Shown: positions 12,381-55,910 of the stretch, in pieces
Layout of the letters: each line of letters starts with the position of its first letter
How positions within the stretch are numbered: the first letter of the stretch is position 1
DNA from: Climacium dendroides
Lineage: Eukaryota; Streptophyta; Bryopsida; Hypnales; Climaciaceae
Reading direction: 5' to 3'
NCBI GenBank assembly: GCA_950106755.1
Contig: OX467082.1
Coordinates: 49,246,588-49,310,587, forward strand
Length of the DNA: 64,000 nt
Position numbers and translations under genes: made by a program
The notes under the pieces: model-generated
What the model was told of the DNA's origin: nothing
Seen by the model: only the letters and a program-made list of their open reading frames with translations
Databases searched by the model: none

Positions 12381-12382
12381 AA

Positions 12383-13808
12383 GTGCTTCGGACTGTCTCC
12401 GTGGTGAGGTCGGTAGAGGATGGAATGCATTGTTGGTATCTCGCTCCTGGGAACTACAAAGCATACGAACTTCCGTTGTCCATGCTAGGTGCATCTACAG
12501 AAATACTAAGGTGCCACTCAGATAATTCTACTATGGATATGCTATGCAGTCCTTACGCCCTGTCACCCAGCCCACCCACAAAAGGTCTGCCGATTCTACA
12601 AATGCCCACAAAACTTCTTGTCGTAAAAGAAGAGAGATTACATCCTATTATAGAGTTGTCTACCGAATCAGAAGGAGAGTCCCCCAATGTCAATTCTCAC
12701 AAGCAAACGTGTCCTGTCGATATGGCACCTACACAGATAGATATGGTGCACTCATAGTCCAGAACCCCGTCCAGAAGCATGTCTAATTCCTCACTGTCAC
12801 TACCGCTACCTAAATCACATATAGTTGGAAAAGCAAGCATAATGGATTGTCTAAAGAGACTTGCCAGTATACATCGCTCCCAAAATGAACTATCCACGAT
12901 GGATCTAAGCACCATGAAGCACCAAAGGGTTCCGTTTCTTCCACCAGTATTTGATGGAGATGTCATCTTCGAATTGTCTCCTTGTGGGTCATCTTCATCT
13001 TCATCGGGGGCCAAGAACTTGGAAGGGATGGACAAACGTTACGATGGACATCCGTGGTGCAAGCTTGTGACCACCAACATCCACAACTCCGACAACCTCA
13101 AATTCCATAAGTCCTACTGTGCTGGCCATTTTGCTTGTGAGAATGCCAACTGTGAGTATCTAAACAGAGCTACAAAGCGAAACGAAACTGAGTGGAGTGG
13201 CTACACTGTGTTTCCATTTACTAGCGGTGGGTGTCCACCAAAAGAGTCTACCCTAGTTTGCAAAGTCTGCAAGATGGCACCGACTTGTCTAAGCACATGC
13301 AAAGCTAGGATGTACTTTGTCTACACTGATAATCCAGAAATGACGAGGGCGGCTATTCATTTTGGTGAGCATGGACACCCCATTGCTAAAGGCATGTATA
13401 GGGATTCTACCGAAATGATTTGTGGACTCATTGCGGAGCAAGTGGCCAAAGCACCTACGGCCACAAACTCCGCAATAACTCTTTTGGCTAGTAAGGACTT
13501 CCTCGGAAGCTACCTATTTCACGATGGAGAAGGGGAGAAACAAATGCTGAAGATGGAAGAAATGGAGGAAGTCATGGACCGCTTCCAATACTTGAGTAGT
13601 CTAAGTATTTGCAACGTGATCTCTTCTTTCTGTTCAAACAATCGAGGAGGGATAATCGACAACATATGACTATGAAGAAAGAGTCAAAGTTCGAGTTCAT
13701 ACACGACAGCGTTTTTCCAGGCCAAGGCAAAGAAAAGGTTTACATTTTCAAGATGCTTACCGAGGGACCAAGAAGTGGAGTCGACCTAGTAAGGCGGATG
13801 CAACCGGA
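12383..13808 (+). pseudogene. MULE transposase, N-terminal part (split gene)
   Basis: The frame from 12,383 runs through one TAG (12,755-12,757) and a frameshift near 13,660. The visible domain, at about 13,060-13,400, has ordered Cys and His residues: a first cluster (SYCAGHFACENANC), then VCKVCKMAPTC and finally AAIHFGEHGHPIAKG, a His-x-His end like WRKY-GCM1-type zinc fingers, which often form the DNA-binding part of Mutator-like transposases. The last readable piece, GPRSGVDLVRRMQP, stops at 13,808, where the 18.5-kb element begins. The reading resumes in the same phase at 32,328 with the MULE core. Its job was transposition of its own element; it is now dead. Confidence 0.7.
13804..13808 (+). 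repeat. Target duplication CCGGA, left copy, of the 18.5-kb element
   Basis: CCGGA directly precedes the left end of the element and recurs at 32,328-32,332 after the right end. In both places CCG is a proline codon of the MULE frame, so excision rejoins the gene without a shift. Confidence 0.75.
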
Positions 13809-13836
13809 ACAGTATATTCAATATTTTGGGAGTTTT
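13809..13836 (+). repeat. Left terminal inverted repeat of the 18.5-kb element
   Basis: Matches the right end (minus strand, 32,326 downward) at AC-GTATATTCAA and TGGGAGT, with a five-base mismatch block in between. The solitary terminus at 52,042 (minus strand) shares TATATTCAATATTTTG exactly, except for one flanking base. Confidence 0.75.
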
Positions 13837-14339
13837 CTAGTGAAATGGGAGTAAATTTTGAATGACTTCGTGATTTCATAAGGCACATTATTGCAAATTG
13901 GGAAGAATGACAAGCCTCCAACACGTAAAAATCATTGAGTTGCAATCAAGAGAGGTATGAAATTAAGGAATGTGGAAAAGATATGCATCAATGCATTGAT
14001 TGAATTCCGAATAATAGGCAAAATTCATCTCATATACATGCCACCTGTACGTCCAATATGAACAACTTCCAACTATTGAAGTGTCCGCCTAGTATGAACA
14101 ACTATGAACAACTACCAACTATCAGAGTGTCCGTCTAGTATGAACAAGTATTAACCACGTGATGTACTCCTCAGCTTCTCAAGGGCCCTCAAAATTTCCG
14201 GGCCTCGACTGCATTTTGGCCTAACACCCGCACCCTCCTGGTGCATGTGTTCCCTCCGCTGCGCCTGTAGTGACCTCCGTTCTGCAGAGTCCCAAGTGGA
14301 AGTTGAGGAATGAGTACACGCCGGTCTCTCGACTTTCCT
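13837..14339. other. Left flank inside the 18.5-kb element
   Basis: Includes a short direct repeat around TCCGYCTAGTATGAACAA (about 14,045-14,150). Otherwise no gene is visible; it is probably 3' flank of the minus-strand cargo genes. Confidence 0.4.
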
Positions 14340-14673
14340 CTACAACTTACTTGCTTCAGTCGGTGCACGACGTGGGAGCAGAAGCTGTGCAACGTGGGGA
14401 GCATTGATTTCCACGTTCAAGTCATGTGGCGCATCGTTTTTCACTTTTGTTGTCTTCATTAGATAATTCGCATCTCCGTAGAGCTTTCTCTGCGTCCCTT
14501 TCTCTGAAGTAGTTGGCGACGATGAGGAATTCCTGACTTCCCTGGAGCGCAAAGGGGATGGCGAGCACGAAACTGGCAAGCGCGGCTTTTTCTCCGGAGG
14601 ACTGTCCACCACTCCGTCCTTGACGTGCTTCACAGAGAAATCCATGGTGGAATTCAATGTTGGAGCCGAGCAC
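14340..14673 (-). CDS. Basic, serine-rich unknown exon near the phosphatase gene
   Basis: A minus-strand frame of about 105 codons starting MNSTMDFSVKHVKDG. It has an NLS-like EKKPRLP patch, a serine-rich run and the stretch PHDLNVEINAP. It lies 420 bp downstream of the phosphatase frame on the same strand, with AG and GT dinucleotides placed so that it could be a last exon of that gene or a separate small gene. I do not recognise it. Confidence 0.35.
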
Positions 14674-14916
14674 AGGAAGTCCCCCGTGCTAAGAATAACG
14701 TATTGTCCATAGTCAAGAAGGGAGTCCTCTAACGCTTGACATGGGAAGACCCCACCCCTTCTAGATTTTGCAGAGGGACTTCGTACCTGATAGAAAACGG
14801 AAGAGAATTAGCATTGGAACCTTCAACCAAGCACAATCAGAGCAAGTCCACGATGAAGCGAAAGCAGAAGGGATGGAATACAGGCTAACTAAACAAACTT
14901 CGTCTCAAACAACATA

Positions 14917-15015
14917 TTAGCGCGAAGCGCGCAAAACTTCAGCATTTATAAAGGAGGAAAGTGTTATTCACAAACGCCATGATCGCCTACCACACCTTAG
15001 TGCGAAGCGCGCTAA
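14917..15015. repeat. Two palindromic sites 3' of the phosphatase gene
   Basis: Diverged copies of the element's palindrome at 14,917-14,934 and 14,997-15,015. Both have GCGAAGCGC in the middle instead of GCGASTCGC, so these two lack the GANTC centre found in most other copies. Confidence 0.8.
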
Positions 15016-15091
15016 AATACAGTGCGTGAGAATTAGAGGAACTGCAACATGCAAACAGCGGGAGCTTGACCGCATACCTCCACCAGTAAGT

Positions 15092-15849
15092 CTAACTAAC
15101 AATAACAGGCCCAAGCAAGATCTCCATGAGACTGTTATACTCTCGACGACCCCGTTCCTCGCACAGCATTCGTCTTCCAATCCTCCACATCTTATCCTCC
15201 CTAAAGGACTTGAGACCAATGCTACGGCTGCCGTTCAATTTTTGCAACCACGGCAGTAAGACGGATAGAAGAGTCGTGTCCTTTTCCCCATTCCCTTGGT
15301 TACTCCACGAATCCAACAAAATTACATTTTCGGGCTTATTCATGAGGTGTTTGCGAGGGCTGTCATCGACTATGACGGTGTTATCGGGAGCAAAAATCCC
15401 GTGGAAGCCACCGAAAAGGACATCGAGGTTTTTAAGGAACAAGTCCTTATCCGTTCCCGGCTCTTTGTAAGCCACCAATCTCCCGGCCTTGTCCTTGTAC
15501 TTGATCGTTTTGCAGGAGTTCTGCCCGAGAACAAGGAAGGGCCATCTTCCCTCACGAAAGAGGTAGACAGCAATTTCATCGACCGTTGTTTTCTTCATGG
15601 AGCTCCATACAGAAATGTTTGCGATCTTCTGTAGCTCCTTCAAGAACTCGGCGCAATTGGGACGAATATAAACCGCTTTGGGCCCGACAGCGGCAGGAAT
15701 GGTGGCTGAGTGCGGGTCCGAGGCCTTGTTAAACTGCTTGATGGAAGGGTTAGACTTCATGTCCTCGCAGCGACATAAGATGCCATTGAGGTCCAGGACG
15801 ACGTTCAACCACTTCTCTGCCCCCCAGACCTCAATGGACGATGGACGGC
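15092..15849 (-). CDS. FCP1/NIF-like HAD phosphatase domain protein
   Basis: The frame from a likely splice acceptor at 15,849 gives a complete FCP1-homology domain. Visible motifs in order: NVVLDLNGILC (motif I; the usual second Asp is Asn, as in a plant subgroup with DLNG), ISVWSSM (motif II), a Lys before DLFLKNLD, and VIVDDSPRKHLM (motif IV with two Asp), then ENVILLDSW. Family members remove phosphate from serine in proteins such as the RNA polymerase II tail; with the Asn change catalysis is uncertain. The frame has no premature stop and ends at 15,092. It belongs to the minus-strand cargo block, 560 bp downstream of the methyltransferase gene, and has palindromic sites on both sides. 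Confidence 0.75.
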
Positions 15850-16043
15850 CTGCGAAGATCCTTCACGATCTACTGTAGGATGAGACCCTTGCTAACAAAC
15901 GTAGGAATTTACAGCCAGTTACAATCGTGAAATTGGCTTCATTGGAACGACAAGACAAATCAGACAAAAGCGTTCCCCGATCGGGATTGAAAAAATGTTA
16001 ACAAAGTCCGTCCTCGTCATGAAGAAGGAAGTAGAGATTATAC

Positions 16044-16167
16044 CTTCTCCCAGTGCTGACTGTGAAGGCTGATCAACGTTCTTGCAACTTGCCGAATTCG
16101 GACTCGTCTGCAGCAGATTTTGCATCGGAGGGACAACACAATCTTCAGGACATGATTCAATATTCAA
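16044..16167 (-). CDS. Probable upstream exon of the phosphatase gene
   Basis: A short minus-strand frame (ESCPEDCVVPPMQNLL, then QPSQSALGEG) ends at a good donor (GAAG|GTATAATC) about 200 bp before the acceptor of the phosphatase exon. No domain is visible. The linkage rests only on strand, spacing and splice signals. Confidence 0.4.
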
Positions 16168-16360
16168 GAGGCCTGTAATTCCAGAATCGGGGAAAAATTT
16201 CTCTGTGAGAGATATATTACAATTTCAGAGACATCGTCTTTTAGAATACAGAACTCACTTTAGATATATCTACTGGCAACTACTATAGCTACAAAACATC
16301 CGCTTGACATCTAGCGCTGTATATACATACAAAAAAATCAGCTAGGAATCTATCACACAA

Positions 16361-16381
16361 TTTAGCGCGAGTCGCTCTAAA
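16361..16381. repeat. Palindromic site 3' of the methyltransferase gene
   Basis: TTTAGCGCGA followed by GTCGCTCTAAA: one mismatch from the perfect palindrome, with GAGTC at the centre. It lies 30 bp past the stop of the coiled-coil exon. Confidence 0.85.
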
Positions 16382-16408
16382 TCTGCATCACACATTCCGA
16401 ATAGAAGT

Positions 16409-17461
16409 TTATTGTGCAGAACCTGTAGGTTGATCTTCGGTGGGCAGGGCATCACTTCCAGACTCCACCTTGGAAGCATCCCTGGACAGGTTCTGCTCAA
16501 TGCTTGCCTCCGTTGCCGTCTCAGTCTCAGCTTGGAATTCGGGAAGGCCAATCTCCGTTGGTGCAAGTTCCTCGGCTTCAACGTCTTCAATCAGTATAGA
16601 AGCTGGCGGTTCGGGCGTCTCCACGGGAAGAGGTGGCGGCACGGGCAGGGCCTGCGACGGACTTGAAGCATTGCTGATGTTCGAGCCAGAGGGCTGACCC
16701 TGGGTGAGCAGCATGGGCGATGGTTCAGCGGGCGGCAGCCTCTGGATTGGCTCCACACCAACCTTCTTGAATAAGAGCTGGAGCATTTCCCTGTTCTACT
16801 GAGCAAGCTCTCGGTTGGCCCTCGACTCCTCCTGCATCCACTTCTGACTGGCCTTGTGCAACTCAATGTTTGCCAGCCTCTCCTTCGCTTGATCGGCCAC
16901 CATTTGCGCCAGTGCAAGCTCAGTCTTTTGTTGCGCCAGCAGAGCTTGCTGTTGCATCTGTTGCATGGACTCGTTATGCCGCTGAGAAATTTTGGCCAAT
17001 TCGCTCGCAATACTTGCAATTGTATCGCGCTTCCTCTTTTTCATTGGCCGTCCAGATCCGACAGGAGTCATTGGTGTCTACGACAATGGTGGCAACATGG
17101 AGCTTGCCGATGAACCGGGTACATCCGCTGATATGCGATTGGTCGGTGTCGCCATTTCATCAAGTCCTTCCGGACTGTCATCTGCAATCTCTTCTCCCTC
17201 CTCCTCCTCCTCGAATTCGGACTCTGCTTCGTTGTAGACAGGACTCTCAACGTTCTTCTGCAAATTGAGAGGAGAGCATTGGCTTGACCTCAGCTTTTTC
17301 TTGTAGGACGAGGGTGTTGAACATTGACCTTGATCACCAGGCATTGAGTACCCAATGTCAAGGAAATCCACGATGTCAAGTGTCATCGCCTTGACAAAAA
17401 TTTCGTCCCACCATGCTGATTGACTGGCTAAACCAGTGGCGAAGACATTCACATCACTCAT
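16409..17461 (-). pseudogene. ParB-methyltransferase gene, last exon (motif end, acidic and coiled-coil tail)
   Basis: The exon starts at a good acceptor (GGCAG|ATGAG) at 17,461. It begins MSDVNVFATGLASQSAWWDE, which continues the methyltransferase fold, followed by an acidic run of Glu, a basic NLS-like PMKKRKRD, a Gln- and Ala-rich coiled coil (about 16,800-17,020) and a Pro- and Ser-rich, Glu-rich tail ending at 16,409. Two TAG codons (17,078-17,080 and 16,796-16,798) interrupt one and the same frame; each sits where Gln fits, for example before NREMLQLL. The tail suggests nuclear localisation and self-association. The stops mean the protein is truncated unless they are read through. Confidence 0.6.
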
Positions 17462-17512
17462 CTGCCAACAGAACAAAGAGGATCAGTCTAATCCTGTATT
17501 GAGGATCCAGAA

Positions 17513-17674
17513 TTCAACGCGAGTCGCGCTAAATTATTGGTTTCTAGGAATGTGAAGATAGGGATACTATGAAGAAGTCTACATATATAGACTGTATGTT
17601 GAATATGTAACGCAAGTGACTTCAGCGCGACTCGCGCTAATACAACAGGTCATTTTAGCACAACTCGCGCTAAA
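17513..17674. repeat. Three palindromic sites in the last intron of the methyltransferase gene
   Basis: Copies at 17,513-17,533, 17,621-17,640 and 17,654-17,674. All lie between the donor at 17,695 and the acceptor at 17,462, so they are intronic. The first two keep a GASTC centre. Confidence 0.85.
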
Positions 17675-17695
17675 CAATTGACAGAAACCTCTTAC

Positions 17696-19050
17696 CATTG
17701 CTGCGCACGTCAGCTTCCCTCCAGCGAAGCCCGAGTATATTGACATCCCAGACTTGTAGAACTTCTTGACGATCCACAGATAGAACTCCATTCGCAATTC
17801 GGTGGGATGGATTCGGTATTCCAGCTCGCTGTATGCGCGCGGCTTGACATACCGTGCCGTCTCTGGACATTCAAATTCATCTGGAATGGCCACCTTGTTG
17901 ACATTGGTTGGGTTCTGCAGAAAGATCAGCTGCACTTTCTTCGGCGTTTTCGCAGCTGAGCAATCACCGAGTCGATCGTTCTTGCTGGGACAGTACAAAG
18001 CGTACGAAACCTCGAAGGTTTTTAAGACCACATTGGATTCAATCCAATGGAGGACTTGAGATTGTTCCTTTTCGTCCCCACAAATAAAGAGCCACGCTCG
18101 GACATCTTCAAGGGCAGGTTTCTTTGTCTTGGCCATCGAGGTGAGCACTTCAATGAAGTACGGATGGTCGATTGTGGAGCTCGGATTCTTCTAAATCCCG
18201 GGCATTGTCCTGAAGTCGAGAACCCCAAGCGCCATATTTTTGGCAATTTGCTCAGTCATCGCATTCGTTGTCCACTCCTTGTGTATATTGCCCACCACCA
18301 CATAGCCTCGGTAGTGGCCACTTGCGGTTGGGACCTGGAAATTAGACTTATGTTGCAGAAATCTCTTCAAGAAATCCTGCGCATCTTTGGACAGCTCTGT
18401 GATCTCTTTGTTGAGGGAAGACTTATTTTTGGCCTTCCCGAAGTATGCTTCGCCTGGCCTGTCAAGAAGGACGTCCATGGTAGCGCTGGATAACTGATGG
18501 TCCTTCTTGAAAGTCTTCCAGTTCTCGTGGATGATGTCGCCTTCCGCATTTAGAAACCCGAGAGCAGGCTTGATTCCATGAAGCTCTCTGATCACCAGAT
18601 TCTTCCGCTTACGGCGCTCAACCCACTCTTTTGTACTCCAACAGTCGTCAAGCACGTTCTTGATGCTCTTTACTGTCACCTTCGGGTACAAGAACCTACG
18701 CTTTTCACCTGTCTCGTTGAGCAAATGTTCAGCGAGTCTTTTCAATTCTGCGTAGCTCAAGTTCCCCAAGTGTTTGAAGAACTCCCGATTCAGCACACAG
18801 CTCTCGGGATTCCAATCGTCCCTCGCATTGAACATGCCTCCCGTATCAGGATTGACGAGCTCTCCATACGTAGCAGCGGTGATGACTTCACTCCAGAGCT
18901 TGTACACATCATCGGGTGCCGTGATGAGCCAGAGTTCGTTCGTAAGCTTCAGTTTTTCCTCTCTGGCCTTGGTTTTTGAGATTTTCAGGTTCTTGACAAC
19001 GTCAATCATAGAAAATCTGATTGTCATGGCTCTCTCAAATACTTGACACA
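17696..19050 (-). pseudogene. ParB-methyltransferase gene, beta-class DNA methyltransferase-like exon
   Basis: The N-terminal two thirds (VFERAMTIRFSMIDVVKNL and on) are unfamiliar and basic. From about 18,172 downward, features of a beta-class DNA amino-methyltransferase appear in that class's order: STIDHPYFIEVL (compare the DPPY motif IV), AWLFICGDEKEQSQVLHWIE (compare the strand and helix after DPPY), then HPTELRMEFYLWIVKKFYKSG leading into IYSGFAGGKLTCAAM (compare the FxGxGT motif I region). Such enzymes methylate adenine N6 or cytosine N4. The changed DHPY and GGK residues make activity doubtful. A TAG at 18,191-18,193 breaks the frame. The exon ends at the donor ATG|GTAAGAGG at 17,695. 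Confidence 0.6.
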
Positions 19051-19153
19051 CAATTAGACAAATGTAATTAGAAGCGACGACGTAGCTCATCAAAGATCAA
19101 TCACGTAGCATGCATTTTGGATAGGACTGGAATTCTGTTAGTCGACGAGGCAG

Positions 19154-19174
19154 TTTAGCGCGACCCGCGGTGAA
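19154..19174. repeat. Palindromic site in the middle intron of the methyltransferase gene
   Basis: TTTAGCGCGACCCGCGGTGAA, a decayed copy just past the donor at 19,182. It lies in the intron that separates the ParB-like and methyltransferase-like exons. Confidence 0.75.
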
Positions 19175-19182
19175 GTGCTGAC

Positions 19183-20628
19183 CTGAAATCGCTCGCGTTT
19201 CTTCTTGTTCTCTACAGTCTGCCGTACTTGAGACGCAGTTCCAATAGACTTGGTGGGCTTGGGATTTTCGGGCCTACCCATATCCTCCCACACTTGACGA
19301 GCCCCAAGGATGTTGCTCGCCCAAGATGGCTGCACAGCGATGAAGTGGTTTGTGCGGTTGTAGTAGGTAGAAATGCATCTGAGCTTTTCCGCGTTCTCCG
19401 ACCACACAATGAAGCAATTCCACTTCTGGAAGTGCTTGTGCTCGATTTTGTCGATGTTGTTGGAGTCATTAAACATGAACTTGCTGGCTCCACACTATGC
19501 TGCCCGTTTATTATGTAGAAATTGCCAGCTGCAATTTCTTCCCACGTCTCCGGCTTCTTAGTGCAGCCCACGGGCATGACGCAGAGCGTTTGTTTCGTGC
19601 TCTTGTCAGGAATGTTGAGGAGGTAGTTGACCATGTCCTCAACAATGTTATCCTGCTTCAACCGGATGTTATAGGTCGCAGGAGCTTCCACGAGCTGAGA
19701 GATATCAATCTCTCGCTTGTCACCAACACCAAAGATGTAAGCGTCTTCACAGCTGGTCCAAAATTGCTTGTAGACCTGGCTGACGTGCGTATAGTCAGGG
19801 CTTCTCAACGTCGCTCGGGAGTGGGGCAAGTTTGCCATCTCCTCAGCGTAACATCCTTCGGGAACTTTGGAGACTGGAGGCTCGATTGCTATTGCTATCT
19901 CTTTCTGAGGAGGATCATCCACTTTTTTTCCTTTTCGCTGCTGAGGCTTCGAAGGTTGTGCTTGAGTTTTCCTCTGACCTCGACTTGTCTCTGATTCCTG
20001 CTTCACGATCACCTTAGAGGTCTGGGTGACGCCTTGCTGCACCATTTCTCTTGTGACCGATCAGGGCTTGCTATACTCTTATTGCATGGAGAGCTTCCCC
20101 TTCAACGTATTGAAGTCGTTGAACAGCTGGCGGATTTTTGTGCACAGCCTCTTCCAGGTTAGGGGAGTGCCGTTTGCATTCTTCCACTCGTTGTTGTCAA
20201 GCTTCTTCTCCAGCTCTATGATCTCGTCGGCGTATGGAGTAGGCTGGAGGCTTTCCAGGAAGTGGCTGAGGTTGAAGTGGCTGAGGACCGAGTTGATGCA
20301 AATGGCGAAGTGGTATTGCATGCTCGCTCCCGGTACAGTGGACATGCATTTCACTTTGATCATGGGATGCGCGTCCACTTCGACATCTTTGATCATTTAT
20401 TGATAGGAGAGTTGGAGGGCGCATGTTGCGTTTTGAAACTTGTAGCTGAAGCAGATCATGTTTGTCATTGGTATCATGCATATGCTCCAACACTCTACTT
20501 CTTCAGGCTCTTTGAACTCCCAGTACTCACCTTCGACTACACTCTCGTCCGCATTGGAATCATCATCCGCGCACTGCACTTCACATCTTTTGAAGTACAT
20601 TTCAAGGGCTTCGACTTGGTCCTCCATT
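19183..20628 (-). pseudogene. ParB-methyltransferase gene, first coding exon with DGQHR-like domain
   Basis: An acceptor (TTGGTAG|AATGG) places the start ATG at 20,627. After about 180 residues of unknown N-terminus and a basic Lys/Gln-rich linker comes a ParB/DGQHR-like domain: ISQLVEAPATYNIR, then MVNYLLNIPDKS, CVMPVGCTKKPETWEE and NFYIINGQHSVEAS, where INGQHS takes the place of the DGQHR or GERR motif. It continues into WNCFIVWSENAEKLR and ends at the donor CAG|GTCAGC. ParB-type domains bind or cut DNA and use CTP or ATP, and in phages and plasmids often sit next to DNA methyltransferases. Breaks: TAA at 20,397 and 20,079, TGA at 20,061, and a one-base deletion near 19,490. Confidence 0.6.
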
Positions 20629-20736
20629 CTACCAAAACAATGTTACGGTGTTTCATGTCAAAACACTGATATGTATTAATTGGGATCTCTAGCTCAGATT
20701 TCTATTCATATTTGAATTTTGACTCCTTTGCCTAGC

Positions 20737-20990
20737 TCAATTTGGATCAAAGCATGATGACTCTCATATTGGCAGGAAATACTTTAGCGCGACTCGCGCT
20801 GAAGTTGAATTGGTTTAGATAGGATTTGGATCAAAGCATGATGACTCTCATATTGGCAGGAAATACTTTAGCGCAGCTCGCGCTGAAGTTGAATTGGTTT
20901 AGATAGGATTTGGATCAAAGCATAATGACTCTCATATTGGCAGGAAATACTTTAGCGCGACTTGCGCTGAAGTTGAAATGTTGAATTGGT
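20737..20990. repeat. 84-bp tandem repeat, three copies, each with one palindrome
   Basis: Units share GGATCAAAGCATGATGACTC, CATATTGGCAGGAAATAC and then the palindrome. The spacing of palindrome starts (20,783, 20,867, 20,951) is exactly 84 bp. The copies differ at only a few bases, so the triplication is fairly recent. Confidence 0.92.
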
Positions 20991-21496
20991 TTAGAGAGGA
21001 TTTGGTATGAATCACTGGTAGGAACTGATTAGCGCGAGTCGCGCTAAAGTGGAGGTCTTACACTATCATTATGTTGGAATAAACTTTAGCGCGAGTCGTG
21101 CTAAGGATGAATTGGTCAAAGGAGATGTCAGACAAGCATCGTTAGGAGTGATTTAGCACGAGTCACGCTAACTCAGAGAACATGCGCTAGATTGAAGGAC
21201 TGATACTTTCTTATCGGTTGATTATACTTTAGCGCGACGCGCGCTAATGTTGATTTGGTTGTTCTAGTTATCTACGTTTTCAATTTTTTTGTTCTAGGCG
21301 GGAGATTTTTAGGAACAGGATGCTGTTTAAGCATTATTTAGCACGACTCGCGCTAATATGGATGTGTATTTTATGACTATGTCTTGTGGATATCGGGTGC
21401 TATGTTTTTATTGAATGGGATGTATAAGACACTTGAGTGGCAGGCTTAGGGTAACGAATTTCTGGATATACCATTTTAGCGCGAGCCGCACTAAAA
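20783..21496. repeat. Cluster of nine palindromic TTTAGCGCGA sites
   Basis: Sites start at 20,783, 20,867, 20,951, 21,029, 21,085, 21,152, 21,228, 21,337 and 21,474. Each is a 20- or 21-bp palindrome made of TTTAGCGCGA and TCGCGCTAAA around a central G or C, with zero to four changes. Changes are mostly C-to-T or G-to-A. The three in the 84-bp repeat end in GAA rather than AAA. Confidence 0.9.
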
Positions 21497-22249
21497 TGGC
21501 CGATTAATGTTTTATTTAGTCATGGCTTTATTTTTAGGGTTTCAGGTTACCAAAAATAGGGTTCAGGGTTTTAGAACAAGAACAGGAACACGAACAGGAA
21601 CAGCAAACAGCAACAAGAATAGGAACAGCAAACAACAAGAGCAACAACAACAACAACAAACAACAAACACACGTATTAAACCTAAAACCCTAAACCACGA
21701 ACATCATTCGCTTCATTGTTACCAGATCATGACTAATTTTGGATTTGCTTCAATGGAAGATGACTAAGCAAGCAATAAGCAACCAAACAAGTCATGGTTG
21801 AAACATTCAAGCAAGCATGTAAGCAAGTCAAGGAAGAAGCATTCAAGCAAGCAAGCAATAAAATTAGAAATTTATTGACCACATACTTAAAAAATAGCAA
21901 CAGGTACCTCGCAGACAGCAGGTGCAGCTCAAAGATCACACCTCGCAACTCAAGTGGCTCTGTCCACACGAGAATGCCCTTATTGAAATTCCAATTATAC
22001 GAACAAAGAACAGAATAAAATCGCACCACAAAATCCTTGAAATTCAATCACACGGAAACAAAACCTTAATACAGCATAGCATCTAATATGAATCTCATCA
22101 AGCAAGGAACCGGCAACTTGTGAAATTAGCATTGCTCTCTGGCAAGCTCTCTGGCAATTTCTAGCAGCTTGAATTTAGGTTAAAAACGCGTGAAAAAAGA
22201 TTGGCAAAGTACCTGTTGAAACTAGGAATTCTGATTGTGTGCCTCCCAC

Positions 22250-22760
22250 TTTGCAGCTCAAGTGTCTCGCAACAATCCGCACGTCGGACCAAACAATCCA
22301 CACCTCGCACCTCGCACCTACGAGATTGCGTTGAGTTCGTAGCAATCCGCACCTTGCAGCAATCCGCACCTCGGACCAAACAATCCGCACCTCGCACAAC
22401 AGGTGCAACCCTAAATGTCGAACCGAGCAACAAGCACGAAGTACGAAGTACCTCGCAGCAAGCAATCCGCACCTCGCACAACAGGTGCACCTCGCACCAA
22501 GCAATCCGCACCTAGCGCCTCGCAATTCCAAATTTGAAGCATTGCTCAGAGCTCTCTCGACACGCTCCTCCGCTGCAGCCCAGGCGGCCAACAAAACTCT
22601 CCGCAATCCGCACCTCCCACCAAGCAATCCGCACCTCGCACCAAGCAATCCGCACCTCGGACCAAACAATGCGCACCTCGCACAGCAAGTGCAACCCTAA
22701 ACCTCGCACCTCGCAGCAAGCACCAAGCACCAAGCAATCCACACCTAGCGCCTCGCAATT
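22250..22760. repeat. GC-rich minisatellite of CAATCCGCACCTCGCACC words
   Basis: The word AATCCGCACCTCGCA, with spacers such as CCAAGC, occurs a dozen or more times. The Cys- and Arg-rich open frames here are only translations of the repeat. It lies in the presumed promoter region of the methyltransferase gene. Confidence 0.85.
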
Positions 22761-22850
22761 TCAAATGTGAAGCATTCCTCACAGCTCTCTCGCCGCACTC
22801 CTCCGTTGCAGCCTAGGCAGCCAACAGAACTCTCCACAATGAACTCAGTT
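22502..22850. repeat. Direct duplication of about 110 bp
   Basis: The segments near 22,508-22,610 and 22,747-22,850 match: both begin CCTAGCGCCTCGCAATT, then TGAAGCATT, CAGAGCTCTCTCG or CACAGCTCTCTCG, CTCCTCCG, GCAGCC and end CCAACA or similar followed by AAACTCTCC or GAACTCTCC. Spacing is about 240 bp, with minisatellite in between. Confidence 0.8.
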
Positions 22851-22859
22851 GTGGCCTCA

Positions 22860-23690
22860 ACGAAGAAACTAAAAAACAGCCAAACCAACAAAACTAAAAA
22901 AACTAGCAACAAATGCGCTGACCCTCTCCCCGCGCGGCGAAAGGAGGGTGACGACCGACCGGGGCTACACCAAGCTTCCAACCAGGGTCGGTATTAGGTT
23001 CGGGTTTAGGGTCGGGTAAAAGTTCGATTGCCGAGGCCACAGGGTCGGGAACCAAGTCCACAGGGTCGGGAACAGGGGCCGCAGGGTTGGACGTTGGTGC
23101 TACAGGCTTCTTTTCCATTTTTGAAGAAGTGCATATTGGCAATATAAAAAATGATATTGGTTTTCCAAATTGCAACATTCATCCATTTAAGGGAGCCAAC
23201 CCATTTTGACCACTTAAGCCATTTGGACTATTTGCACGGCTGATTTTTTCAAAACTTCCATTTCTACAAGTTTCGAAAGAGGCATTACAATGTAGGCATA
23301 ATTTTTGAGATGTTTTTTTGCAACATAAAATTATTGAGAATTTTAGTGGAAAATGGGCTTGCTTCTATTCTAATGATATAGCCCATTATCTTTCCAACAA
23401 TTTTGATTGCAATATTGAGACTCTCCTAAGCCAATTATATAGTGCGACAACTGCATAAAAAGTTGTGCCATATGTAATTGCTGCAAATTTTTTGTGCACA
23501 GTCAAAAAGGCAATGGTCTATACTACCAGAATGGGATGTCGGTTATAAATGGGTTGCCTCTTGTATTGGATGTATGGTATGGTTTTCATCCACAATTGGG
23601 CAATTTCATCTAATATATTTTTATATTTCAAAGTTGTCTAGCAATTTCATCCACTTTTTCTAGCATTTTCTATAATCTTTTTTAGGGCAA
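22860..23690. other. No recognisable gene
   Basis: A minus-strand frame at 22,903-23,178 contains a proline-rich VPDPVDLVPDPVAS repeat, but base use looks like simple repeat and there is no domain. The rest is AT-rich with nothing I can name. Confidence 0.4.
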
Positions 23691-24180
23691 TCCTTCCTTT
23701 TCATAAATCATAACAATCTTGCCCACTTAGAAGTTGAACTTTGCATGAATAAAAAAAAAATGGGAATAGAATGGGCCCTCCCCTTGAATGGTCCAAATCC
23801 TTCAAATGTCTTGCAATAATTAAAAAAGAATGCTCAAATAAATTTCAAGCAACTTGAAATTCGTGCTACACATTGGATTCCACATTAATTCTCAATGCTA
23901 GCCCATTTAGGAGTTAATTTACATGTGAAAAGGAAGGATTGCCAAGGATACGGCCGTTGTACCTTAACGGTTCAAAATTAAAAAGGTCATGGAATTTTGT
24001 AAGTGATTGCTCAAATTTTGATCAAGCAAGTTGTAAATAGTGGTACAAGCGACATCGTATGTTCATTTTCAATCTTGCCCACTTAGAAATTGAACTTTGC
24101 ATGAATAAAAAAAAAATGGGAATAGAATGGGCCTTCCCCTTGAATGGTCCATTCTATTCAAATCATGGCCTTATGGGATG
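23690..24180. repeat. Satellite-like repeat, period near 178 bp (set A)
   Basis: The word GCCCACTTAGAARTTGAACT and its variant GCCCATTTAGGAGTTAATTT begin at 23,721, 23,901 and 24,077, spacing 180 and 176 bp. The first and third units also share GAATAGAATGGGCC and CCCCTTGAATGGTCCA. An inverted copy of the poly-T and GGGCC part is at about 25,975-26,045. Confidence 0.75.
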
Positions 24181-24199
24181 AATTCATTAAATGGTAAAT

Positions 24200-25010
24200 A
24201 AAATATATATTAGTACAAGTTATGAATTAGATGAACTTTAAGATTTTATAATAAAAAAACACTACTAGTGCTTCTTTTATACATTTTTGGAAGCAAAATT
24301 AATATGTAATTCAATAACTCATGTGCTGTAGTATAGAAATACTAAAGTCCAGAAACCATGATGTATATGAAAATAATCAAACGCAAAAGACATGTACAAG
24401 TTGCATACTAATTGAACATTTAGATTTCATGATAAAACATTATTGATGGTCATTTCATTCATTTTAACACGCAAAAGAATTCTAATTGAATAAGTCATGT
24501 GCTGTAGTTTACAAATAATGAAGCCCAAAAGCCATGACATATATGAAAATAATAAATAAACGAAATACATGTACAAGTTGCATACCAGATGAACATCTAC
24601 ATTTCATGATAAAACTATATTAATTATTAAAGGTCCTTTTATGCATTTTGACATGCAAAAGAACTTCTAATTGAATAAATCATGTGCTGTAGTTTACAAA
24701 TAATAAATTCGAAAAGCCATGACATATATGAAAATAATAAAAACCAAAATACATGTACAAGTTACATACCAAATGAACATCTACATTTCATGATAAAACT
24801 ATATTAAAGGTCCTTTTATGCATTTTGACATACAAAAGAACTTCTAATTGAATAAATCATGTGCTGTAGTTTACAAATAATGAAGCCCAAAAGCCATGAC
24901 ATATATGAAAATAATAAAAACCAAAATACATGTACAAGTTGCATACTAAATGAGAAATTTAGATTTCATAATAAAACGAAACTAATGTTCCTTCTAGGCA
25001 CTTGGAGACA
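24200..25010. repeat. Satellite-like tandem repeat, period 176-185 bp (set B)
   Basis: ATGTGCTGTAG recurs at 24,321, 24,497, 24,682 and 24,859, each followed by AAGCCCAAAAGCCATGA-like words, ATATATGAAAATAAT, ACATGTACAAGTT and TTTCATGATAAAAC. Four units, about 80-90 percent alike by eye. No coding potential. Confidence 0.88.
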
Positions 25011-27480
25011 TGCCAAAACAAACTAATTGCAATAAATGGTACTGAGAGACTTCGAATTTTTATCCATATGAAATTGTAGTTCCATTTCGAATAATTAAAA
25101 GGTATGAAAGAAAAATATATTACAATCTACAAATTTATATTTATTGGGTTGAATTCAAAGAATCTTGTTACAAATCTTGAACCCAAATTTAAAATTAGGA
25201 ACATTCTAATTTAAGCTTATAATTCATAATTGAGAGTGTGATGTGAATGCATGGTGGACTCCACCATGATGGGTTCTCCAACTTCATCATTTCAATAATT
25301 ACTGTTCTTCACTTGAAGAGATGACCTCACCTTTTGCCACTTCCAAAGTTCATTGTATGTGTCAATTACCCAAATTTTCAGTTAAAAATGATTGTTTAGT
25401 CATGCGTTTATGTTTAAAAAAGTTGAAAAGTCTGTCATATAGGATCTTCATACACCATAATTATTATTTAGTGCAATAGGAAAGTCCTCTGCAAAGTGTG
25501 TTCATGATTCCATTGAACATCCAAAAAAATATACAATTACATAATTTTTAACATGAGTACCGAATGCATCTTTCAGTTTATGTGCTTATCTTTCTACATT
25601 CTCATGTGGAATGTAAAAATTCATGTAGTACATTGTAAAGAAACAAAAAATTATTTTATTTATTGTATGTGTACTTTGTTTTCAGTATAATGCCCAGCAC
25701 TAATTTGAATATAATGCCCACAACTAATTTGAACTTCCTTAATGAAAATTTTTCGCATTCACGTTTTAAATTTCATGACATTTTAAATTTTGGACATCTT
25801 CAGTCCAACGGCCATGAAACTTCTTTTGTCACGTGTACATGATTTATTAAATGGGCAAGCATTGAAAATTTGCTTGGAATCCAATGCATAACTTTAGTTA
25901 CAGTAATTTTAACTTGCTTCAAAGTTATTTGATTATTGACGTAACAAATTGCAAGACATTTTCAAATTTGGGCTTTGAAAGGGCCGGGCCCATTTCATTC
26001 CCAATTTTTTTTTATTCATGTAAAGTTGAATTTCTATGTGGGCACAAATCGGACATTATTCTAGAATATAATGCCCAGTAGCCACTAATTTTAACTTCCT
26101 TAATGAAAATGTGAGCATTCAGGTTAAAAATTTCATAAGAATGTCAATTTTGTATGTAAACACCCAATCCTTAAATTTAATTCTATGATTTCCAACAAGA
26201 TTCCTAAACTCCAATAAATATAAATTCAGAATTTGTACTCTAAAATGTTATTTACTTATCTTCCTCAATTTTGTATGTGAATGCTCATTTTCAACATTCT
26301 TAATTTCATCTTTGTGAATGATAAAACCGTGAATCTGGATTCTTTGCAGTAAATTCATGCTACTTTTATAGAAGTAGGTCTTGTACCATTATAGATTTCC
26401 TAAACCTTTTTATGATTGTTTACTACTTTTTGAGCACGATTGCTTGATTTAGAAGTTTCAATTTGAATTTGATAACTTTGTATGCAAACAAGTTTACTAT
26501 GGTTGCCTTTTGATTTCATAGGTAAGTTTAACATTTGTTAAAATGAATCTAAAAATTATTTTTTAAGGACACGATTGAAGTAGTAGTTGATTTGTTTTTA
26601 ATGATTGAAGTAGAAGTTGATGAAAATGAGGCATACAATTAAATTTCATAAAGAATCATAAGATAAGAACATTTGTTAGTATGAGTTGTATTTTCATAAA
26701 TACAAAACTTGAAAGTATTTGACATATATTATAGTCAAAGAGTACAAAGGAAGTAGAAATTTTAAATTATGTAACATTTATCATTATGTAACATTTATAA
26801 TTTGTGCCAGAACATGGGTCTACTATTCCTTGAACAAACACATTTTGTCTATTATTTCACAATAATGCTATTGTTATTTTAAAAAAATACATATTTTTAT
26901 GGATTTACCCCTCCAAAAACAACTTAGAACGTTATGAATAAGTTTGGTCTTCAATGTGACATTGAATTGTATTCGTCTACACGTATGCCTTTAAAGCTCC
27001 CTAACCAAATATTTAAATTTTCTGGCATCTATTCAATTTGGTACGTCAAAAGAATTAGCTTAGTGCCGTGGATTTCACATGACATACCCTCAAGCTTGAA
27101 ACCTAAAACCCTAAAAACCCTAATATCCTAAAACCTCAATGTGAACTTCGTGAAATGTAAAGTCTATTTAAGTATCTATTTATTAAGTATCTAAACTTTT
27201 AGAAGTGGAAACCTGAAATGCCGTGAGTGTAAAGTGGAATTGGAGTTTAGTTCCATGGACTCCATATAGAGTACTATTTTGAGGCGGTCAATATTTATTG
27301 AATTAAAAACGAGAAGGAATTTCCCCAATTGCAGTCACTGTAGAAGGAGAAGAATGTACCAACTTTAGAAACAGTTGCCTGAGGGCATCTTCCTTGGTGA
27401 ATAAAGTTGTCAGTCCAAATGACCCTTGACCATTTTTATCGAAGTGCGGAAAAGGCTAAAGGAATACAATAAGGCTACAA
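25011..27480. other. AT-rich gene-free centre of the element
   Basis: Only repeats are seen: ATAATGCCCA.CACTAATTT..AACTTCCTTAATGAAAAT appears near 25,685-25,750 and again near 26,065-26,110, and an AATTTATATTTATTGG word at 25,132 has an inverted partner near 26,205. It may be a later insertion between the two divergent transcription units. Confidence 0.5.
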
Positions 27481-27538
27481 ATAATAACTCCACTTGCCGT
27501 TCGTGACAATCTCCCATTCACAAGAAGACACGTCACCG

Positions 27539-27545
27539 TATAAAA
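27539..27545 (+). promoter_or_regulatory. TATA box of the DUF7869-type gene
   Basis: TATAAAA in the context GTCACCGTATAAAAGTCAACG. The downstream 400 bp are richer in G and C and carry a strong donor at 27,970, as expected for a non-coding first exon. Confidence 0.6.
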
Positions 27546-27969
27546 GTCAACGAGCAATAAAAACTTATTTCTTAAAAGGCTGCTGAATCCGTAACATCCG
27601 TGAGGAATTTGATTCATTCCTCTTTTAGGGTGCACCTGTAAGATTCCACCTGCAAAGGCATGAGGAATCCCAGAGCACCAGAAATTAGAAACAGGACGTT
27701 CAAATTGTTGGATTGGGTTGGCGCTTGTTTGTTCGCGCCAACAATCTGGGTTGCATCACCGAATCGCATGCACGTCCTTCCTCTTTCACCATTCTCTTGA
27801 ATCGAATCGTCGCATGTTTTTTGTTTCCGCACTTTGTGTGCATCTCGTTCACTTGCAGTGTTCTCCTCCGTGTCATGTTCTGGAGTCCCGATTCGTGAAC
27901 GCTTGCGTCTGTTTGGTTGTTATCCGCTGCTGTCGTAGCTCAAGAACTTCAACGTGAAACCTTGCCGGT

Positions 27970-28985
27970 AACGTACTTCTCCCTTCTACATCTGTTTTAC
28001 ATACTTCCATTCTGAACGTGAACGCTTGTCAGGATACATTCCGTCAAATGCTTCAGAAGCACACTTGATTGCGCAGGTCTTCATTTTTTCTAGATCGCAT
28101 TTCACATTGCAGCAATTGTACTTGAATTTCATTTGCAACCATTGTGCTTGAATATCATTTCGCAAAGTCTCTCCATCGTGCACGTCTAATGTTGTTCGTT
28201 ACTGGTTCCGTGAATTCCGGAATTACTAAAAATAGTAGTTTTGAGTTCAGCTTAGAAGTATGTATGGATTCCGATAAATACGGGATGTTCAGATGAATCA
28301 TCACCAAAGTTATGACTAGCAGTTTAGCGCGACTCGCGCTAAATTACGTTTCTGAAATCTCATACATAGTTTAGCGCGTGCCGCGCTAATGTATATTTCT
28401 GTTTTCTAATTCTAGACCTCGGGATATGAAGTACAGAATAGTCGCACTGCAATTCAGCGTGACTCGCGCTAAACTGGGTTTCTGTCTGATAAGCCTAAGC
28501 GAGGTAATTGATTTACGGAGTAACCCAACTATATTTCAGCGCGAGTCGCGCTAAAGTATGTTTGGGAAAAGTCCGTGAATTTCAGCGCGAGTCGCGCTAA
28601 GATTTTCCGTTTGATAATCTTGAACGGGGGATCGATATTCATTTTAGCGCGAGTCGCGCTAAAGTTTGCTCCCTCTAGTCAATCTGAATTAAAAAATAGT
28701 CCTGGTCCACGGGATTCATGTGCAGGGTAACTTAACTACATTTTAACTTATGCCTAGACAGTGCAGATTACAAACAATTACACGGATGAACAACTTTAGC
28801 GCGAGTCGCGCTAAACCATGATTCATGAATGAATAGAATTACAGTTTCCTACTATAGCAAAAGCGACACTAATGATTGTTTCTGTAGCACATTGACTTTA
28901 ATAATGAAAAGTTATGTTTTTATTTAAAATTACGCACCTGAACTTCAGCACTTATTCTTGTTTGTGATCTGTTCTTGATTTACAG
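27970..28985 (+). other. Probable 5' UTR intron of the DUF7869-type gene
   Basis: A donor (TTGCCG|GTAACGTAC) at 27,970 and an acceptor (TTGATTTACAG|AGAACATGG) ending at 28,985 frame about 1 kb with no coding potential. The acceptor lies five bases before the ATG at 28,991. The intron holds seven clear palindromic sites and one ruined one. Confidence 0.6.
28323..28872. repeat. Cluster of seven palindromic TTTAGCGCGA sites plus one decayed copy
   Basis: Sites start at 28,323, 28,370, 28,453, 28,535, 28,581, 28,643 and 28,795; a decayed copy is at 28,853. The sites at 28,323, 28,643 and 28,795 are perfect 21-bp palindromes. Six of seven have GAGTC or GACTC at the centre. Confidence 0.92.
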
Positions 28986-28990
28986 AGAAC

Positions 28991-31828
28991 ATGGCCTCAA
29001 ATTTTATACCAGATGACATCGTCGATTCATCGGATGATGAGTTCCAGGCTCTTGAGAGTATGAATGTTGGTGTTCCTGAGTGTGAAGGGCTTCCTCGCCG
29101 AATGTGGAACACAAGGTGTGTTACCTTGTACAATGGCGATGGCGTGCTTGTTGGAGAAGGGACTTGTCATAGCGTGGACTCTCAACTCGTACTTGGTGCC
29201 AATGGACCACTTGGAGACACGCACGTGTCTGTACACATTTCAAAGTCACACTCTGAAGTGGTCATTCCTCGAGAACGAGTGTACTCTTTGGTAGCTTGGC
29301 CAATTGAGCTCGTCCATTGTCATGGGGCGAGTCTGAAGGATCATGAAGCAAGGGACCATTTCAATCGTTCCCGAGAAGCGCTCTTGAACCCCCCTTCTTC
29401 TAAATCGGCGAGGCCCTATTCCAGTACCGTCAGAAACCCGCCTCGTGAGACTGCGTTGAAAACAAAGGAGTTTCTTACTCAGGGGTTGATCAATGCGGTG
29501 TCAAGCAAATTGTGCTGCAGTCAGAATTGCATTCAACCGTTTCCTAGGGAGAAAATACGAGCCTTTCGAGAACGCATGTATCGGAATTCAACTTTCAAGC
29601 ATAGAGCCTTCATGAAGACTGACGTGCACAGGCAGATCCATCGAGATGCACGCGGAAGGAGGATGGTAACAATTGAAGGAATAAATGTGTGTTTGCGCGC
29701 ATGGATGCATATTGCGGGGGTCGCAGAGTCTACTTTCTATTGCTACCTCAATTACATGAAGGCTGATAGGGAAGCAAGGGATCACGGGAACATGGGATTG
29801 CTCAAGCCTCGAGAGTATACCGAACAAGCCACGGCTTTATTGAAGTGCATTCTCGACAAGGAAGCCGATCACATGCCACATCGCTCTCGAACGTTGAAGG
29901 AAGGTGACAAGGTGGTGTCGAAGATTTTGCCGGCTTCTTTTCAGTGGAAGGACCAGTTGAAGAAAGTCAATGAAGCTAATGTGGCTTTTGGATTGAAAGA
30001 GATCTCAACTTCAAACTTGAGCAAGATAAGGTCGTCAAAGTTCCCGGAGTACGATGTGAAGAAGCCTGGGGACAATTTTGCAAGATGTGCTACTTGTGAC
30101 AAGTATAATGAGCTCGTGAAGGGCGCTATCTCGGGATCTCATACCGCCTTGAAGTAGTCAAGGATGTTGGATAAGCATCTACTCACAGCTCGTGCACACA
30201 GAGATGTTTATTATATCAACCGGGATTGGTCGTTCAAGTTTCCGCATGAGTGCGTTACAATCATACATGACAAGATGGATCATGCCAAGACCGCTTCTCC
30301 CGTCTTTTCGCACAAGAGTAAAGAGCTTGACGGCTTGATGAAGCTACCCGTTTCAGTGACGGGTATGATTGCGCACGGTCATGGTGATGTGCGCTATGCG
30401 CATTATGGCTTAGAAGTCTTCACCCATGACTCCAACTATACCATTGCTTCAATGGCAAAGTTGTTGCGAGATCTGGAGTTGATGCCGAAGTCTTCTTCGC
30501 GAGAGTTGTTCAAGAATTCAAAGTCCACAAATCTCTTTAAGGCTGTGTTAGAGGGTGCAGCAATGTGTGGCGCGTCTTTGCCGCCACCGCCAAGTAACTT
30601 AGCTCCGGCGGTGCCGCTGCCCTCTATCTTGAATGTTCAGATGGACAATGCAACTGGAGACAACAAGAATAGATATGTCTTCTGTTTTTGGTCTCTGCTT
30701 GTTGCAAAAAAGATCTTCCGGGAAGTTTATGTGAACTTCATGATTGTGGGTCATACGCATGATGACATCGACGCGCTCTTCGGAAGATGGAGCATGGATT
30801 TGAAGAAGGAGAACTTCCCTACAGTTCCTGCACTCATGAAGTCATTCATGGACGTGGATTCCATTCCCACTATCCCTCACCTCATCGAAGAAGTGCCCGA
30901 TTTCAAGGGCTTCATAGCGGGTTCATTTGAAGATGGCAATGAGATCCTTGTTGGGCATACAAGACCGCAACAATTGAAGTTCTTCTTGGATTCCAGTGGT
31001 TGCCCTGTCATGATGTAGAAACTCTTGTGCACTGATATTGATTGGCTAGGAAAAGATGGCAATGGCATCAAGTTGTGGAAAGAAGATGTTGAAGGAAGGA
31101 GTTTGTGGCCACGAGGTGTACCGTTGCCCGTTCCGTTGAAACCTATGAAAGACTTGGAGAACATCGTGAAAGGCGTGTCGGGGTTTGTGAAGTATTGGGA
31201 CAATTTGTGCAATGCGGACGTCACCGGGGAGTATCGGAGACGTTTTGAGCACGTGGTGAAGTATTGGCGTGGCGTGAAAGTAGCATTGATGGAACCGTTA
31301 CCCACATTTTCAACTTTGAAGGACGGTTTTTGGCCAAATACACGTGTTCAACCAAGTCGAGTGGATCAAATAGACGATGATGGAGAGGATCGTGAAGAAT
31401 TTGGAGAAGATGAACCATACGTTGGGCCAATAAGTGGTCGTCCAAATCCATCTTTCAGAGTAGCGCGAGACTTGTTTGAAGGCTATTTTGTTGCAGTTCG
31501 ACCTACTGAAGGTGACCTCCATCCTGTTTGGATTGGAAGGACATTGTCTAATCCAAACTGCGATCCAGAGAATCCGAACTGCGTTCTTATTCAATATTTT
31601 CGTCCGATGTCAAGGAATCAAGATGTCCAAGACTTCTACACCGGTTGGGACAGCGAAAGAGGTCTACGTTGGAAGGTTGATGAAACTGAAGGTCCAATGT
31701 GGCAGCACACGGATGCTCTTATGACAGCATGGAAGTCGAGGATCCAGAAGGACACTGTGGAGTGTATGATCAAGATCCCGGCTATACAAATCGAAGTCAT
31801 CAACGAAAGTCTGGCTTTGTATAATTGA
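28991..31828 (+). pseudogene. DUF7869-type protein, candidate DDE-like transposase
   Basis: One frame of 946 codons runs from the ATG at 28,991 to the TGA at 31,828, broken only by TAG at 30,155 and 31,016. N-terminal third: acidic start and a basic region. Middle: Cys pair FARCATCDKYNEL, then CVTIIHDKMDHAKTASP, SVTGMIAHGHGD, LNVQMDNATGDNKNRYVFCF and NFMIVGHTHDDIDALFGRW. The MDHAK, QMDN and HTHDDID acidic residues are ordered like a DDE/RNase H-fold catalytic set; from memory this block is the DUF7869 family. C-terminal: NFARCA-independent domain with VWIGRTLSNP, FYTGWDSERGLRWKVD. Related fragments occur at 35.2-41.2 kb and 51.3-51.9 kb. It is the best candidate mobility gene of the 18.5-kb element; family is fairly sure, catalysis is inference. 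Confidence 0.75.
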
Positions 31829-32176
31829 GAAGCCATAACCACATATCTATATAATTATGTGGCATGTTTTGTTTTGTATTTAACATCCTTATATTGTGTG
31901 TAATGGATGGAAATTATAGAAAGCCTAAGTTTCAATTATTGTGGTTTGGGTTTAGTGTTTGGTATGACCTCTATGTTTTGGATTGGATTTTAGTGTTTGG
32001 TATGACCTCTATGTTTTGGAAATGTACATCTTGTTTTTTATAAACAAGAGCACTCTATTTTCATTTTGATATATATTATTTTATTTATTTGAATTGACTA
32101 TATTTTTCCCCCATCATTTTCACTAGTTTTTTTTGCATAGTCGTGTTTTACACTTTCATTTTTATGCACTCATTTT
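31829..32176 (+). other. 3' flank of the DUF7869-type gene
   Basis: AT-rich, with a short direct duplication of TTTAGTGTTTGGTATGACCTC at about 31,950 and 31,990. It probably holds the poly(A) signals. No gene. Confidence 0.5.
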
Positions 32177-32327
32177 ACTCTCATTTTAATGGAAATTGTG
32201 CCTTCATACAAAAAAGTTTGTATTTGTCAACTTTAGTTGTTTGGAGCAAATCCATTCTTATAACTATCAAAATGGACAATATTATTTTGGGATACCCCAA
32301 TACTCCCATTTTTTTGAATATACCGTT
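32177..32327. repeat. Right terminal block of the 18.5-kb element
   Basis: Begins ACTCTCATTTTAATGGAAAT and ends at GAATATACCGTT. The same block (ACTCYCATTTTAATGGAAAT near one end, ACAATATTA and a TATATTC-type end at the other) recurs at 51,891-52,042 and 58,224-58,395. The last 28 bp form the right inverted terminus. Confidence 0.8.
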
Positions 32328-32332
32328 CCGGA
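32328..32332 (+). repeat. Target duplication CCGGA, right copy, of the 18.5-kb element
   Basis: Follows the right terminus GAATATACCGTT. Pairs with 13,804-13,808. Confidence 0.75.
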
Positions 32333-34792: not shown

Positions 34793-34859
34793 GCATGGCC
34801 ATAGTTTGCAATGTATTTCAATTGTAATGCAGTCATTTTATATATGACAATTGAAATGT

Positions 34860-35040
34860 GAATGAATTTGTGTTCACCAAGAGTGCTCAACTTTCATAAC
34901 CTGTAGGGCAAAAAGATATGGTGATTGATGGAGTTGCCCCCTCTATTAAAATTTGTGGATGAATTTGTGTTCACTGGTGGTACTTGGCTTTCACAACTTG
35001 TAGGAAAAAAAATATGGTGAGTGATGGAGTTTCCTCCAAA
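34860..35040. repeat. Tandem duplication of about 101 bp
   Basis: GAATGAATTTGTGTTCACC...CAACTTTCATAACCTGTAGG...ATATGGTGATTGATGGAGTT at about 34,860 is repeated as GGATGAATTTGTGTTCACT...CTTTCACAACTTGTAGG...ATATGGTGAGTGATGGAGTT at about 34,962. It follows the MULE gene and may be part of that element's end. Confidence 0.8.
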
Positions 35041-51317: not shown

Positions 51318-51890
51318 CTACAGTTCTCCACTCACGTTTGCTGTGCACAAGTCGTCCCAATAGTTTATGAATCCTGATAAACCTTTGACAATGTCATTGA
51401 CACCTTTCATTGGCTTGAGTGGTACTAGCAAAGGTACACCACGTGGCCACAAACTCCGTCCTTCATCGTCTTCTTTCCACAACTTAATGGCTTGACCGTG
51501 CCTGCCTAACCAGTTTTCATCCGTGCACTTCAACTTGTACTTCATGACTAGGCATCCAACAAAGTCTAGGTAGAACTTCACTTGTTGTGGTCTTGTGTGC
51601 CCCACAAAGATTTCATCACCATCCATCCATTTTCATGCAATGAAACGCTTGAAATCAGGCACCTCCTCTATGAGGTGAGGGATAGTAGAAATGGACTCAA
51701 CATCCATGAATGACTTCATGAGCGCCGGGATTGTTGGGAAGTTCTCCTTCTTCAACAGCATGCTCCACCTTCCAAACAATGTGTCAATGTCGTCGTGTGT
51801 GTGACCAACAATCATGAAGTTGACATACATTTTTGGAAAGATCTTGTTAGCAACAAGTAGAGACCAGAAACAAAAAACATATCTGAACAA
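51318..51890 (-). pseudogene. Third DUF7869-type gene fragment
   Basis: On the minus strand, FRYVFCFWSLLVANKIFPK, NFMIVGHTHDDIDTLFGRWS, MKSFMDVESISTIPHLIEEV, EIFVGHTRPQQVKFYLD and WKEDDEGRSLWPRGVPLLVPL match the main copy closely over about 190 residues, closer than the copy at 35 kb. A stop follows FKRFIA. It lacks everything before the NKNRYVF zone and everything after the VTGEYRR zone. The upstream edge touches an element terminus at 51,891. Confidence 0.85.
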
Positions 51891-55840: not shown

Positions 55841-55910
55841 AAAAAAAATGAGAAAAAAATGAAAAACTAAACAAATAAGATTTTACATACACTTTAAACA
55901 TGTATATGTA

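Follow-up and report, generated by a model that had tools for sequence, protein, structure and literature searches.

What has split a gene on this Climacium dendroides contig, and what does the intervening DNA carry? The window, the whole stretch of 64,000 bp analysed here, is G000:C1:49246588-49310587; coordinates marked u are C1 positions minus 49126587, window base 1 being u120001. The split gene, which we tentatively call MULE-like, as the preliminary description did, has a left part at 12370..13807 (+) and a right part at 32332..35038 (+). A MULE core and a SWIM finger had been recognised in it earlier; Pfam gave no MULE match in the flanking frames, and the SWIM finger stayed below threshold (E = 4.9). 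Between the two parts lies the element E1 (13808..32327, 18,520 bp, no strand assigned), with the left terminus AACAGTATATTCAA at 13808..13821 (+) and the right terminus AACGGTATATTCAA at 32314..32327 (-). The ends, flanks and coordinates described before were found in the sequence as given. The duplication, earlier taken as 5-bp CCGGA, is better read as 4-bp CCGG (left copy 13804..13807, right copy 32328..32331): the left junction runs GCAA CCGG and then AACAGTATATTCAA, and the right junction, in reverse complement, CCAT CCGG and then AACGGTATATTCAA. Both termini begin with AAC and share the form AAC[A/G]GTATATTCAA, and with this symmetric reading (AACRGTATATTCAA, zero extra bases) the extra base formerly placed between the right terminus and the duplication disappears. 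The split had also been called frame-exact, which is the outcome of removing any insertion that made a target duplication.

The paired ends of E1 alone were not beyond chance. When 14-nt inverted ends with ≤1 mismatch were sought next to 4-bp duplications, the window returned 37 pairs, many of them belonging to other repeats, and 30 first-order Markov sequences averaged 2.7. In an empty-site test, the E1 flanks were joined by script and compared with neighbouring gene copies across the junction. One nearby copy of the flanking gene was uninterrupted over the junction (84.7% identical, CCGG/ATGGGG intact), and a second was likewise continuous (77.5% identical), with two indels of 1 bp each next to the junction; these are the continuous copies whose presence had been proposed as a check. 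It is on account of these two empty sites, together with relatives that carry duplications, that E1 is established as an element, the ends by themselves being insufficient. Inverted ends, a target duplication of fixed length (imperfect in one copy, on C3) and empty sites were all found, and E1 is a cut-and-paste-type DNA transposon, which bears out the earlier view that a large element of this kind, with cargo, had split a gene.

Relatives were searched for over 100 kb on either side of the window and then over 20 kb more. E2 (u83843-101938, 18,096 bp, duplication AAGA, termini AAGGCCTTATTCGTTAAA) has the gene order of E1, and E3 (u10970-30120, 19,151 bp, duplication TACT) has it in reverse orientation; E4 and E5 are partial relatives near the window. 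Further away, a copy on C31 has the duplication ACAA and appears from its sequence to lie within the end of a further member of the family, and a full-length copy on C3 has the imperfect duplication CTCAG/CTCAA. The left end of a copy on C34 was not found, and few of its features were used. The ends of E1 recur as pairs in E3, E2 and the C31 copy; neither of the two outcomes named beforehand as refuting the earlier view, a lack of continuous gene copies and a lack of paired ends elsewhere, came about. With zero mismatches, AACRNTATATTCA occurs five times in the window: at both E1 ends, at 52042(-) and 58395(-), where similar ends had been placed at 51,891-52,042 and 58,224-58,395, and at 55139(-), which is probably a chance match. 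The first of these outlying ends belongs to a remnant (51324..52042, -) in which a right-type end stands beside a transposase fragment (77% at the amino acid level), and the second is a solo right-type end (58224..58395, -). Right-type ends (32327, 52042, 58395, u10970, u269475) also bear, directly inward of the terminus, a second inverted motif, CTCCCAAAATAATATTG, which may form a hairpin and is missing from left-type ends.

E1, E2 and E3 (u133808, u83843 and u10970 on G000:C1), the complete elements in and beside the window, each lie inside a copy of the MULE-like gene, at three different positions, while such DNA makes up 5.2% of the remaining neighbourhood sequence. On the other hand, no MULE-like flank was matched beside four other ends nearby, nor in six stretches fetched at three further E1-type copies (one without a left end), and for this reason an insertion preference is not claimed. 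Elsewhere in the window we observed an inverted repeat at 9873-12010, whose arms measure about 830 bp and are 86% alike, related inverted stretches (3825-4428 and 12005-12380) and a 370-bp foldback at 55476-55845 (86% match to its own reverse complement). A DYW-type PPR gene was also met, which is indicative of a land plant.

The preliminary description did not include the transposase, the nature of the cargo or the palindromic sites described below. The transposase frame of E1 (28979..31828, +, first ATG at 28991) has two in-frame stops and contains a DUF7869 domain at 30158-31018 (+; Pfam PF25273, E = 4e-41), scoring 141.2 bits against a cut-off of 26. A first structure model (498 aa, pLDDT 60.7) was uninformative, as was Foldseek with both models; a predicted structure, itself of low confidence, has an RNase H-like layout. 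The putative mover of the E1 family is this DUF7869 transposase, presumed to be of the DDE type. The E3 frame has zero stops. E1 (30155-30157) and the C3 copy apparently share an in-frame stop, after which the reading frame restarts with MLDKH and at which E3 is open; the subfamily may rely on another source of transposase.

MULE target duplications are 9-11 bp long. Those of E1 are 4 bp, and its domain piece matched only DUF7869, without the PF10551 core, so E1 is not assigned to the MULEs. For Sola2 elements, 4-bp duplications, short inverted ends, a similar transposase length and captured genes are likewise described, but the Sola2 duplications are AT-rich (AWWT) and those found here are CCGG, TACT, AAGA and ACAA (PMC3627910). 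The literature search turned up no description of DUF7869, and none of the E1 family was among the literature matches listed.

The cargo of E1 appears, from sequence likeness, to comprise an NIF/FCP-like phosphatase and a ParB-like, methyltransferase-like protein. One phosphatase exon lies at 15092..15862 (-; PF03031, E = 7.5e-20) and the probable last exon at 14340..14807 (-), with a co-linear match in E3, E5, E2 and L004, a metagenome contig considered below; a search of the PDB by sequence returned nothing at E ≤ 0.001. Among its homologues, Asn replaces the second Asp of the FCP/SCP DxD motif in 79 of 117, the other 38 having no motif match, and the phosphatase family may accordingly be catalytically dead. 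The ParB-like/methyltransferase-like gene (16409..20630, -) has several exons, placed by homologues and exon mapping, and in E1 it is broken by stops and one frameshift; in E3, each translated cargo piece (ParB-like, methyltransferase-like and phosphatase) has one stop. The names ParB-like and methyltransferase-like were assigned by eye, with zero significant matches in Pfam and PDB: the ParB-like profile found nothing in the PDB by sequence at E ≤ 10, and the methyltransferase-like part reached "DNA methyltransferase" in PHROG only at E = 0.032. The sole PDB match of the methyltransferase-like piece by sequence, a serine protease at E = 1.3, was rejected.

Similar gene sets were met in metagenomes. 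On apparently common contigs, at least seven transposase-phosphatase, at least five transposase-ParB and at least nine phosphatase-ParB pairs were counted among the best 120 of 637 transposase matches, equal length being taken as contig identity, and this co-occurrence suggests linkage. L001 and L004 are two contigs of the cyanobacterial metagenome bin AVDCRST_MAG81 with plant-like transposon genes, and are probably contamination by stray eukaryotic DNA.

The scan for chance ends also brought to the surface a recurring sequence, the 21-bp palindrome TTTAGCGCGASTCGCGCTAAA. At ≤6 mismatches there are 23 copies, all 23 within E1 and none in the rest of the window, and at ≤3 mismatches 21 copies in the window against a mean of 0 in 100 shuffles. 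Nine sites form a cluster upstream of the ParB-like gene (20783..21495) and seven another upstream of the transposase (28323..28815). Three stand in the intron that follows the methyltransferase-like exon (17513..17674), one directly past the putative donor site of the ParB-like exon (19154..19174), one between the ParB-like and phosphatase genes (16361..16381), and two degenerate copies between both phosphatase exons (14916..15016). Each full site holds four CpG, and the observed/expected CpG ratio is 0.84 in E1 versus 0.65 outside. Read as a peptide, the palindrome occurs at ≤1 mismatch in 9 of 82 ParB-like homologues, against a mean of 0.05 after shuffling, which may be plain coding homology. 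On viral contigs exact palindromes numbered zero, and of six stretches there that fitted a peptide pattern none was a relative.

Each type of element was found to have its own palindrome. The half-sites are TTTAGCGCGA in E1, TTTAGGGCGG in E3, TTATC[C/G]TCGA in E2 and TTTAACTCGA in E4, each mirrored in the second arm, so that both arms are altered symmetrically between E1, E2 and E3. The complete elements examined hold 20-23 palindromes each; own-type sites at ≤4 mismatches number 23 in E1, 21 in E3 and 20 in E2. The E3 pattern takes 6 of the 23 E1 sites and the E1 pattern 1 of the 21 E3 sites, in each case sites already counted as own-type, and none is common with E2. Perfect palindromes with arms of at least 8 number 30 in 264 kb, and the 15 that have at least four near-copies within 25 kb are all in E1-E4. 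On metagenome-bin contigs, the form TTTAGCTCGA adjoins a DUF7869 gene that is 53% identical over 923 residues, and TTCAGCTCGA adjoins a phosphatase gene that is 45% identical. Within single elements no co-variation of the arms beyond column make-up was detected (4820, 339 and 2130 of 5000 shuffles reached the observed value for E1, E2 and E3, respectively), so that the palindromic constraint is visible between types and not between sites.

To follow the types over the whole assembly (412.6 Mb, 123 contigs), sites were counted wherever located, inside elements or not. E1-type sites numbered 590 at ≤2 mismatches and E3-type sites 970 at ≤1, tolerances that differ between the two figures, and the reversed control patterns gave zero for either type. 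Hybrids with one E1 arm and one E3 arm numbered 18 at ≤1 mismatch and none exactly; 17 of the 18 differ from a pure type by one substitution, and the remaining one, inside E1, differs by two.

The positions of the sites correspond between E1 and E3, with three in the methyltransferase-like intron, one after the ParB-like exon, two in the phosphatase intron and clusters before both genes. The clusters themselves cannot be aligned, although the surrounding spacer and the transposase stretch (79%) do align. In the spacer between the clusters (22016-26152) the main blocks are 88-94% alike, above the likeness of the genes, which suggests recent exchange. The methyltransferase-like parts of E1 and E3 are 47% identical, the phosphatases 60% and the transposases 81%, and the palindromes differ even beside the transposase. 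The E5 phosphatase, in turn, is 80-84% like that of E3 and its site is of the E3 type, and the C3 copy, whose three compared genes are 94-96% like those of E1, has 21 sites of the E1 type. The palindrome type, judged from these sequences, thus tracks the cargo genes rather than the transposase in the few elements compared.

A comparable arrangement has been described in Arabidopsis. In VANDAL21, the nine-base motif YAGTATTAY is mainly non-coding; it is present upstream of VANA21 and within introns of both VANC21 and VANB21, and tandem repeats spread it (PMC5735166). VANC proteins are described as binding non-coding regions and removing silent marks (PMC10398659). The sites of E1 resemble this system in being short, element-specific, numerous both within introns and ahead of the transposase, partly tandem and of a type that varies between related elements (PMC5735166, PMC10398659). 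They are concentrated in the non-coding parts of the element, and they change together with an encoded protein between E1 and the C3 copy on one side and E3 and E5 on the other, few elements as these are. The palindrome is 21 bp long in place of nine bases (PMC5735166). A VANC relative was not recognised, and the likeness to VANDALs is one of layout, the motif, the transposase and the proteins being different.

We consider it rather probable that an element-encoded homodimeric reader binds the element's own palindromes, a VANC/VANDAL-like self-recognition in a large DUF7869 transposon family. Different palindromes in one nucleus, not expected of a shared host factor, together with a type that tracks the cargo, point to a reader encoded by the element. 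The ParB-like/methyltransferase-like product would be the most likely candidate and the phosphatase a less likely one; no DNA-binding domain was recognised, and frames of E1 are themselves broken. Such a protein would bind the 21-bp palindromes, both the intronic ones and those ahead of the transposase and ParB-like genes, and once bound would keep the genes of its own element active or free of silencing, a putative anti-silencing function.

The palindromes might instead be internal binding sites of the transposase that act as transposition enhancers. Repeated transposase sites occur in other transposons, and one cluster adjoins the transposase gene; this reading is nevertheless unlikely, since the E1 and E3 transposases are so similar and their termini alike while the palindromes differ, and since many sites are in introns and none was found in the terminal 500 bp of the element. 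Slightly less likely still is a host transcription factor with promoter or silencer sites, which the clusters upstream of gene starts would suit. A shared factor would keep the palindromes constant within one nucleus; moreover, the E1-type control pattern is absent from the genome, and the three patterns have two matches in the 228,233 bases that lie outside E1-E3, both in further relatives (the E4 upstream cluster and the E5 phosphatase intron). ParB/parS-like centromere or replication sites of an extrachromosomal stage would account for the ParB-like motif, recognised by eye, beside palindromes, but the sites are dispersed by gene and intron rather than set in one array and an ATPase partner was absent among the frames scanned, which makes this improbable. 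That small mobile inserts accumulated in the element is hardly credible, for although tandem duplication produced some copies (an 84-bp repeat), inserts would not switch type in place, and corresponding positions of E1 and E3 hold different sequences.

Self-recognition by an element-encoded reader could be taken one step further, although this extension is tentative and we hold it with less than even confidence: the family may have evolved, apart from the VANDALs, a self/non-self system at the level of the element, in which a ParB/methyltransferase-derived dimeric reader would recognise a CpG-rich palindrome, several private pairs would exist per genome, and new pairs would arise when some twenty sites are converted in concert, symmetrically in both arms.

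DUF7869, named only as a domain of unknown function, is now placed within complete mobile elements that have ends and duplications. It has long been asked how a regulator can change specificity jointly with its many cis sites, and because several palindrome types coexist in one genome with transposases still closely alike, specificity can be compared directly here. If the sites are anti-silencing, the family would offer a case independent of the Arabidopsis VANDALs, with CpG-rich targets.
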